Assembly (NCBI GenBank): GCA_005889405.1
Contig: VBFY01000066.1
Coordinates: 1-44,122, forward strand
DNA from: Chloroflexota bacterium
GTDB lineage: Bacteria; Chloroflexota; Limnocylindria; P2-11E
DNA: 44,122 nt
Direction of reading: 5' to 3'
In this document: piece after piece, positions 38,968-42,312 of the stretch
How the letters are laid out: the number at the start of each line of letters is the position of its first letter
Numbering within the stretch: position 1 is the first letter of the stretch
Notes under the pieces: generated by a model
Database searches by the model: none
Seen by the model: the letters and a program-made list of their open reading frames with translations, nothing else
What the model was told of the DNA's origin: nothing
Made by a program: the position numbers and the translations under genes

Positions 38968-40011
38968 GTGTTCACACGCGAAGAGGTGCGCCTCACGACC
39001 CTGGCGACCTGCGCCGGCTGAGGCGCGAAGCTGGGCCCCGGCCCACTGGCGCAGGTCCTGCGCCCTCTGCAGCAACAGCCGAGTCCCGCGGAGCTGCTCG
39101 TCGGTCTCGCACCGAGCGACGACGCGGCGGTGTATCTCGTCGCGCGCGACGTCGCCGTCGTGGAGACGCTCGATTTCTTTCCGCCGATCGTCGACGACGC
39201 GTACGCCTCCGGCGCCATCGGGGCCGCGAACGCGATGTCCGACGTGTTCGCAATGGGAGGCGAGGTGCTTTTCGCGCTGCAGATCGCGGCTTGGCCCGAG
39301 GACCTGTCGATGGAGCAGCTCGAGACGCTGTTCCGCGGCGGCGTCGACAAGGTGCGTGAGGCGGGTGGTGTGGTCGCCGGAGGCCACACGGTGATCGACC
39401 GCGAGCCGAAGTACGGCCTCGCGGTCACCGGCCGGGTGCATCCCGAACGCATCCTGCGGAAGAACGCGCTGCGCGTGGGCGACGCGCTCTGGCTGACTAA
39501 GCCGATCGGCACCGGCGTCCTCACGACCGCGCACAAGAACGGAAAGCTCGCGCCCGAGGACCTCGCGTCGGTCATCGCGTCGATGGTGTCGCTCAACCGC
39601 GGCGCCGCGCGCGCGGCCGTCGACGCGGGCCTTCACGCGGCGACGGACGTCACCGGATTCGCGCTCGCGGGGCATGCGTTCGAGATGGCGGATCAGTCGC
39701 GCGTCGGCATCCGCATCAGCGCAGGGTTGGTGCCGCTCCTGCCAGCGGCGCGCGAGCACGCGGTCGGCGCGAGCTTCGGTGGGCTCGAGCGGAACAAGGC
39801 GCACTTCCTGGACGGCGGGCGCGTTCGCTTCGACGGTGTCGATGATGTCGTGCGCACGCTGCTGCTGGACCCGCAGACGTCCGGCGGGCTGCTCATCGGT
39901 GTGCCCGCCCCTCACGCGACGCCGTGGGAGCGCGCGCGCGCCGCGCACAGCGTGACGGCGACACGGATCGGCGAGGTGACCGAAGGTCAGGGCGTGATCG
40001 TCACCGCGTGA
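38968..40011 (+). CDS. selD: Selenophosphate synthetase with selenocysteine at residue 18 (UGA at 39019-39021)
   Basis: SelD makes selenophosphate from selenide and ATP, the selenium donor for selenocysteine and selenouridine. Read from GTG 38968, the frame runs to TGA at 39019-39021 and then on to 40011. Around that codon the peptide is TTLATCAG-U-GAKLGPGPL, matching the SelD active-site loop in which this residue is Sec or Cys, so the UGA is Sec18. Downstream come LAPSDDAAVYLV, AIGAANAMSDVFAMGGEVLFAL, GGHTVIDREPKYGLAVTG and TDVTGFALAGHAFEM, all SelD. A hairpin with a GGTC apex lies at the right distance (39048-39064). Total 347 residues, normal for SelD. Standard gene finding would truncate it to an ATG at 39130. 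Confidence 0.95.
39048..39064 (+). promoter_or_regulatory. Bacterial SECIS-like hairpin in selD mRNA
   Basis: GGCGCAG and CTGCGCC form a perfect 7-bp stem around GTC. The apex reads GCAGGTCCTGC, very close to the GCAGGUCUGC apex of the E. coli fdhF SECIS, with the GU pair needed by SelB. The G of that apex is 34 nt behind the UGA, within the range known for bacterial elements. Confidence 0.75.
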
Positions 40012-41396
40012 GCATCCAGCAGGTCGAGGAAGTCGAGGGAGAAGAGACACCGGTCCCAAGCGCGCGAGCGGCGGAGCTCGCGCGTCTGTCCCCGAGCCGC
40101 GCCGCGCTCGAGCTCGCGTGGCCCGGCATCATCGAGCAGTCGGTCAGCGCTCTCGGCACGGCGATTGTGTTCGCCTTCGTCGGACATCTCGGAGCGACGG
40201 CGACCGCGGCGGTCGGCGCCGCCGGCCAGTTCCTCTTCCTGCTTTTTCCGGTGTGGCGCTCCCTGGCCATCGGCACCATCGCCGTGGTGAGCCGGCGGAT
40301 GGGGGAGGGTCGCCCGGTTGAGGCGGCTGATGCGACTCGCCAGTCGTTGATCCTCGGCGGACTGGCAGGGATCGTGTTCGGCGCGGGGTTCGTCATCTTC
40401 GCTGCGCCTCTGCTGCGACTGCTCGGAGCGAGCGACGATGTTGTCGCGATCGGAGCTCCGTTCCTCGCGGTCATAGGCGCGACAAGCGGCACGGCGACCG
40501 TCGCACTCATCGGGACGTCGGCGATGCGCGCTGCCGGCGACACGCGGACGCCGATGTTCCTCGCGCTCGCGAGCGTCGGTGTCGCCGTCGCCCTCGCCTA
40601 CCTCTTGATCGACGTGCTCGGGATCGGCCCGATGGGGTCGGCCTACGCGTCGTCGATCGTCTGGATCCTCAACATGATCGTGGTCGTCGTGCTGCTGCTA
40701 CGTGGAGTAGCCGGCCTCAGCATCGCGGGCGGTCCGTGGCGACTCACGCGCCAGACGACCCGCACGCTCTTCGCCATCAGCCTCCCGTCGGGACTCGAGA
40801 GCGCGACCTTCAGCTTCGGCATCCTCTTCCTTTCTGGTCTGGTGTTTCGCCTCAGCACCGAGGACGTCGCAGCGCATCAGATCATCGGGCAGATCGAGAC
40901 GTTCTCCTTCTTCCCGTGCATCGGTTTCTCCGCAGCCGCGAGCGCACTCGTGGGTCAGGCGCTCGGCATGGGCGATCCGGAGCGCGCCCGCCGCGCGGGT
41001 TGGGCCGCGGCGGGCATGGCGCTGGTCTGGGCGACCACCGCGGGGATCACGTTCCTCGTCGTCCCGAGCTTCCTGCTCGGCATCTTCACCATCTCCGGCG
41101 CGGTCGTGACCGCCGGGATCGGTGCGCTCGCGGTCGTCGGCATCGGCCAGCCTGCGCAGGCACTGATCTTCGCGCTCGGCGGCGCGCTGCGCGGTGCCGG
41201 GGACACGCGCTACCCGCTGATGGTTTCGCTGGTGAACTGGTTCCTCGTCCGACTGCCGCTCGCGTATGTCTTCGGGTTCGTCTTTGGGCTCGGACTGACC
41301 GGGATCTGGCTCGGAGTGACGATCGACTACTTCGTGCGTGCCGCGCTGCTCGCGGTGCGGTTCAGGAGCGGTGCGTGGGCGAAGGTGCGAGTGTGA
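40008..41396 (+). CDS. MATE-family efflux transporter
   Basis: MATE proteins export drugs or metabolites by Na+ or H+ antiport. The 462-residue product has about twelve membrane helices in two six-helix halves: WPGIIEQSVSALGTAIVFAFVGHLG and ALAVVGIGQPAQALIFALGGALRGAGDTRYPL are typical, and the first half has its own ALIGTSAMRAAGDTRTPMF copy of the latter motif. About 30 charged residues precede helix 1. The GTG at 40008 overlaps the selD stop as GTGA. Pairing with selD may be chance or may reflect co-expression; nothing points to a selenium compound as cargo. Confidence 0.93.
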   Translation: MSIQQVEEVEGEETPVPSARAAELARLSPSRAALELAWPGIIEQSVSALGTAIVFAFVGHLGATATAAVGAAGQFLFLLFPVWRSLAIGTIAVVSRRMGEGRPVEAADATRQSLILGGLAGIVFGAGFVIFAAPLLRLLGASDDVVAIGAPFLAVIGATSGTATVALIGTSAMRAAGDTRTPMFLALASVGVAVALAYLLIDVLGIGPMGSAYASSIVWILNMIVVVVLLLRGVAGLSIAGGPWRLTRQTTRTLFAISLPSGLESATFSFGILFLSGLVFRLSTEDVAAHQIIGQIETFSFFPCIGFSAAASALVGQALGMGDPERARRAGWAAAGMALVWATTAGITFLVVPSFLLGIFTISGAVVTAGIGALAVVGIGQPAQALIFALGGALRGAGDTRYPLMVSLVNWFLVRLPLAYVFGFVFGLGLTGIWLGVTIDYFVRAALLAVRFRSGAWAKVRV

Positions 41397-41411
41397 TCGG
41401 CTCCGCGTCTG

Positions 41412-41495
41412 TGCCCAGGGCGGGACTTGAACCCGCACGTCCTTTCGGACACGAGCCCCTCGAACTCGCGTGGCTGCCGATTACACCACCTGGGC
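41412..41495 (-). tRNA. tRNA-Leu (anticodon GAG) with unusual C33
   Basis: An 84-nt class II tRNA with perfect 7-bp acceptor GCCCAGG/CCTGGGC, D-arm GTG/CAC, anticodon stem CGAGT/GCTCG (last pair T-G), long variable arm TGTCCGAAAGGACGT, and T-arm GCGGG/CCCGC with loop TTCAAGT. The anticodon loop is TCGAGGG: anticodon GAG, but C where U33 is nearly universal. The last D-loop base is C, where the other Leu tRNA of this window has A. Discriminator A, no encoded CCA. Confidence 0.88.
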
Positions 41496-41505
41496 GGGTG
41501 AGTCC

Positions 41506-42312
41506 TCATTTTAGTCCACCGTCGAGTTCATGGCGCGCTGCGTAGGAATCCCAGATGACCCGCTTGCGCTGGAGGCACGGAACGTCGAGTCCCGAATACA
41601 GCCATGGCAGGAGTCGAGACGACTCGTGGTTGGCGTACGCGAGACGATGCATCGGATGGATCCGGTTGCTCGGCTGGTGCGTGCCGATCGATCCCCAGAT
41701 CCCCAGCTGCGACCGTAGACGTTCGCGGAGCCATTCGACGTGTGCGCGACTCGCCGAGTTGAAGACCGTGCGGAGTGCTTCATACGTTCCCCTTGCCTTA
41801 CCCGTTCCCTGGTACGTGTAATTCAGGATCGATCCATCACCATCGAGTAGTCCTCGGACGAGGTGGGACACGTTCGAGTCGGGGACGTCGATGGCACCGA
41901 GGACAAGGCTCTTGCGTGGCATCAGACCGACGCTCCGGAACCACTCGTACAGGCGCGCATCGCCGAACTGGATGTGGTAAACGACGTTGCCGTCGCGGGT
42001 CAGCTCCACGCCGATCGTGTTCGTTCGTCCAAGCAGGGCCAAGTAACGCGACACGAGCTCGAAGTCTTCTGATTTGAAGTTGATCGAGCGGCGTCGACCA
42101 AAAGTGAGGCAGCCGTCGGTTGCGGTCAGCCCAACGATGTATGCCATCGAATCTGACCAGGCCAGGGGCAGCGTCGTTGCGGTACGAACAAGCCACCCCA
42201 GTCTCCCCAATGGAGTTCGGCGCACATAAAGCTTGCCCCGATGCCCTTCAGCCATGCGTGCCACGCGCGCATCCGTCTTGGCTGTCAGGCCCTTGGCCCA
42301 GCCCTTTCCCAT
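41506..42312 (-). CDS. LAGLIDADG homing endonuclease-like protein
   Basis: The 268-residue product has two LAGLIDADG motifs, AYIVGLTATDGCLTFG near residue 60 and HLVRGLLDGDGSILNY near 150, each with the catalytic Asp, and the helix and strand spacing of a monomeric double-motif enzyme (about 200 residues between about 50 and 260). Such enzymes cut long DNA targets and spread their own gene. No intron or intein splice elements surround it, so it is free-standing. Its stop lies 10 bases before tRNA-Leu(GAG) and covers that gene's -10 element. The base composition is visibly lower in GC than its neighbours, which suggests recent transfer. Confidence 0.85.
   Translation of the reverse strand: MGKGWAKGLTAKTDARVARMAEGHRGKLYVRRTPLGRLGWLVRTATTLPLAWSDSMAYIVGLTATDGCLTFGRRRSINFKSEDFELVSRYLALLGRTNTIGVELTRDGNVVYHIQFGDARLYEWFRSVGLMPRKSLVLGAIDVPDSNVSHLVRGLLDGDGSILNYTYQGTGKARGTYEALRTVFNSASRAHVEWLRERLRSQLGIWGSIGTHQPSNRIHPMHRLAYANHESSRLLPWLYSGLDVPCLQRKRVIWDSYAARHELDGGLK
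41508..41513 (-). promoter_or_regulatory. -10 element of the tRNA-Leu(GAG) gene
   Basis: TAAAAT, then GAG, 11 bases before the mature tRNA 5' end, the same arrangement as at tRNA-Leu(CAG). It overlaps the last codons of the endonuclease gene. Confidence 0.45.

Follow-up and report, generated by a model that had tools for sequence, protein, structure and literature searches.

The selD gene of the analyzed window, a 44,122-nucleotide stretch that corresponds to one contig (C99) of a Chloroflexota assembly, is interrupted by an in-frame TGA codon, which raises the question of whether this codon ends a protein or encodes selenocysteine (Sec). When the TGA is read as U, positions 38968-40011 of the + strand give one continuous translation, VFTREEVRLTTLATCAG-U-GAKLGPGPLAQVLRPL..., which runs from a GTG start, whose context (VFTRDEIRLTTL) is kept in relatives, to a TGA stop. 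The frame contains a single internal TGA (39019-39021, codon 18), the next one being the true stop at 40009-40011. As the first-pass annotation of this DNA had proposed, this internal codon lies in the active-site motif of SelD (TCAG-U-GAKLGP), the U being followed by GAKLGPGP in the translation. The product is a selenide water dikinase: it matches nearly the full length of the SelD equivalog model TIGR00476 (positions 1-308 of the model on residues 8-314) with 339.7 bits for a curated cut-off of 125, and PRK00943.1 with 306 bits for a cut-off of 299. The SelD homology that had been noticed on both sides of the TGA forms one TIGR00476 match that spans the codon. It had also been predicted that a default annotation would begin at 39130 and lose the active-site residue, and the mechanical list of open reading frames indeed gives a truncated frame of 293 aa without active site (39130-40011, + strand). 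The issue raised by this locus is mainly one of annotation, since default calling strips SelD of its active site here and would likewise do so in Sec-type relatives of this gene.

The host assembly (3.05 Mb, 96% complete, draft of 114 contigs) was searched for the Sec machinery, which the first-pass annotation had expected to be encoded elsewhere in the genome. All three components were found: (i) selA (C70:191994-193304, 517 bits), (ii) selB, located 0.6 kb behind selA (C70:193888-195732, 341 bits), both above cut-off in profile searches, and (iii) a tRNA-Sec gene (C48:5461-5552, 74.3 bits against RF01852) that ARAGORN names tRNA-SeC(tca) and whose anticodon is UCA. Another match to RF01852 above the cut-off (C38, 50.6 bits) is a tRNA-Ser(UGA) and was rejected as tRNA-Sec. 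The search for further UGA-containing selenoproteins, which had been suggested as a check of the initial reading, identified formate dehydrogenase-N alpha (FdhA; C18:7624-10383, locus L059), which carries one in-frame TGA (QQARV-U-HGPTVV) and matches TIGR01553 with 977 bits (cut-off 814). Default annotation would break this gene at its TGA. Among bacterial selenoproteins, FdhA and SelD have the widest distribution (PMC1794560), SelD being the second most expansive selenoprotein family (PMC13188914). The selenouridine synthase SelU/MnmH (TIGR03167) was searched for in the host and not found. Therefore, no second use of selenophosphate was seen beyond Sec, which does not conflict with a Sec-type selD.

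The kin sample comprised 61 genomes, and selD was detected in 32 of them, 23 from the same family or order (including the host) and nine from class-mates outside the order. One in-frame TGA is kept in all the 22 kin selD genes of the family or order (23 with the host), whereas the nine genes of the class-mates are devoid of in-frame stop, the eight that were read encoding CGGC with a cysteine (Cys). The alignment with Sec-type and Cys-type SelD, also suggested beforehand, thus places the TGA on the active-site Cys of the Cys-type homologues. The latter belong to the same protein family and have similar flanks (CGGCAAKLG in class-mates) but carry TGT or TGC where the host has TGA. The selA gene was found in most genomes of the host family and also in class-mates with Cys-type SelD; therefore, selA alone does not predict a Sec-type SelD. 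The nine class-mates that harbor selA together with a SelD gene devoid of in-frame TGA are G029, G033, G039, G041, G045, G047, G051, G055 and G057, in which the Sec trait presumably serves other selenoproteins.

At the scale of the phylum, a draw of 400 Chloroflexota genomes showed that, among the selD matches listed, most by far of those with the best scores contain one TGA, the Sec type being the commonest SelD type among the strongest matches listed. A Sec-type SelD is therefore ordinary for this phylum, and the enzyme found here is of a kind that is already well known and causes little surprise. It shares with other bacterial Sec-type SelD the UGA at the active site, a SECIS hairpin behind it and the presence of selA, selB and selC in the genome. 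It does not differ from them in kind, although its motif is CAG-U-GAK (CxxU) and not the GAG-U-(A/G)CK found in other Chloroflexota. The named relatives that come closest (73-79% identity) are CF_129 and further metagenome assemblies of Chloroflexi, whose depth labels, such as 30cm, suggest a soil origin.

Three other explanations of the TGA were weighed against its reading as Sec. Since TGA differs by only one base from TGT and TGC and the host genome is a draft, the gene could be a Cys-type selD in which sequencing or assembly introduced a false TGA. However, the host shares this codon, at the same site, with 22 other genomes of its family and order, among them many separately assembled species, which refutes an error for practical purposes; the covarying hairpin behind the TGA (see below) and the Sec machinery of the genome also speak against it, so that the probability of this explanation is negligible. 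It is also very improbable that selD is a decaying pseudogene or that the protein starts at 39130, the TGA being a real stop. Although the default open reading frame does start at this position, the 54 residues ahead of it, on both sides of the TGA, are also conserved in the relatives, the selD frame has no other stop or frameshift, and the shorter form would be devoid of the active-site loop.

An in-frame TGA by itself cannot tell which residue is inserted, and readthrough or a reassigned code could in principle lead to a residue other than Sec. This is very unlikely, since TGA is a normal terminator in the host, including for selD itself, tRNA-Sec (UCA anticodon), selA and selB are present, and the TGA falls exactly on the site known to be occupied by Sec or Cys in SelD. 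The selD gene at 38968-40011 is thus almost certainly a genuine selenoprotein gene whose UGA is read as Sec, a reading based on sequence data: the gene itself, its TGA and the conservation of this codon, the machinery genes and the covarying hairpin. From the known pathway, SelD would make selenophosphate, which SelA would use to turn Ser-tRNA-Sec into Sec-tRNA-Sec. SelB would then bring Sec-tRNA-Sec to the ribosome and bind a hairpin located after this codon, for which 39048-39064 is the most likely candidate, and the UGA at 39019 would be decoded as Sec rather than as a stop. The inserted Sec is expected to be the active-site residue of SelD and to have a catalytic role.

The published constraints of the bSECISearch model were applied, with a script, to the hairpins behind the UGA. 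In this model, bacterial SECIS have a stem of 4-16 bp, a loop of 3-9 nt with a G in its first two positions, a spacing of 16-37 nt and an energy of at most -7.5 kcal/mol (PMC13188914). The distal hairpin (GGCGCAG-GUC-CUGCGCC; 39048-39064, + strand) satisfies all of them, with a stem of 7 bp, a 3-nt GUC loop that starts 33 nt behind the UGA and an energy of -11.3 kcal/mol, a stability that was equalled by none of 200 shuffled sequences. Its small loop starting with G-U, its GC stem and its spacing are shared with the model (E. coli fdhF type), but the host selD differs from it by an additional, proximal hairpin between the UGA and the distal one, which is also favored in Sec-type genes. In minimum-energy folding, the 52-67 nt that follow the UGA did no better than shuffled sequences, and the Rfam scan of the window matched only a tRNA and no SECIS family. 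Since the region is GC-rich, the folding of longer stretches is uninformative and comparative tests were therefore used: fold stability alone proves little for a SECIS, and the support beyond chance is comparative.

A distal stem of at least 5 bp is present in 74% of 84 distinct Sec-type sequences compared to 27% (maximum 48%) in synonymous recodings, and in 20% of 15 Cys-type sequences compared to 21% in recodings. In the covariation set (61 LAxVL-type sequences), the proportion of paired stem cells is 92.5%, compared to 85.5% (sd 0.6) when the 3′ letters are shuffled and 22-48% in slid versions. Furthermore, at the pair 39051/39061, the third position of an Ala codon tracks the first position of the codon located four codons further on: GCG occurs with CGN in 46 sequences, GCT with AGY in seven and GCC with GGY in three, whereas the five others include one clear mismatch class each (ACA-CAA and GCT-GCT); since many of the sequences are related, these counts do not represent independent events. 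The distal stem is thus kept among relatives through compensatory changes, and three types of Watson-Crick pairs made by different codons at the same position would be hard to explain without an RNA structure. Overall, the comparison of Sec-type and Cys-type genes clearly supports a bacterial SECIS through covariation that is linked to codons. The 7-bp SECIS-like stem noticed in the first reading of the sequence hence fits the model, covaries and exceeds synonymous recoding; judged by its energy, model fit, covariation and recoding test, it is the best SECIS candidate in selD and the most likely binding site of SelB.

The proximal hairpin (UGGGC-CCCG-GCCCA; 39032-39045, + strand; -7.0 kcal/mol) is a second structured element with a putative role. 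Corresponding stems of 5 bp or more, in shifting registers, are found in 86% of Sec-type genes compared to 25% in recodings and in none of the 15 Cys-type sequences, the Cys type showing no excess of either hairpin. Among 79 distinct sequences, model-compliant hairpins are distal only in 40, proximal only in 10, at both positions in seven and at neither in 22; by chance, the same criteria find a compliant hairpin in 4 of 15 Cys-type sequences. The Chloroflexota selD loci (L018-L134) show a pair of hairpins in tandem after the UGA of the Sec codon, and both are also present in one sequence from outside the phylum, that of a Zixiibacteriota relative (L028).

The true SECIS of the host could be the proximal hairpin or both hairpins together, given the excess of the proximal one over recoding, the 10 sequences where it is the only compliant one and, in our own reading of the geometry, a distance to the UGA that resembles that of E. 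coli fdhF. This remains an unlikely variant of the reading as Sec, since the proximal hairpin of selD just misses the published model in three respects, with a loop (CCCG) that lacks G at positions 1 and 2, a spacing of 15 nt and an energy of -7.0 kcal/mol, whereas the distal one fits it, and since the excess of its stem over recoding is small in the host family (5.00 vs 4.44 bp). Beyond the host, because only the proximal hairpin is compliant in some lineages, the position of the SECIS, near or far, may vary across the phylum. A tentative and rather doubtful extension, drawn from sequence comparison, is that both hairpins of Chloroflexota Sec-type selD are under selection, the SelB site having switched between lineages or both hairpins acting. 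Which of the two SelB reads is a testable question.

Directly after selD, with an overlap of at most a few bases, the window carries a gene encoding a MATE-family transporter (40008-41396, + strand), whose start is likely a GTG inside the stop region of selD. This arrangement suggests that the two genes are co-transcribed. Further on, a tRNA-Leu(GAG) gene (41411-41495, - strand) is directly adjoined by an open reading frame of 268 aa (41506-42312, - strand) whose match to LAGLIDADG_3 is weak (E = 3e-4) and narrowly fails to reach the Pfam cut-off. This frame may be a relic or encode a homing endonuclease of the free-standing kind.
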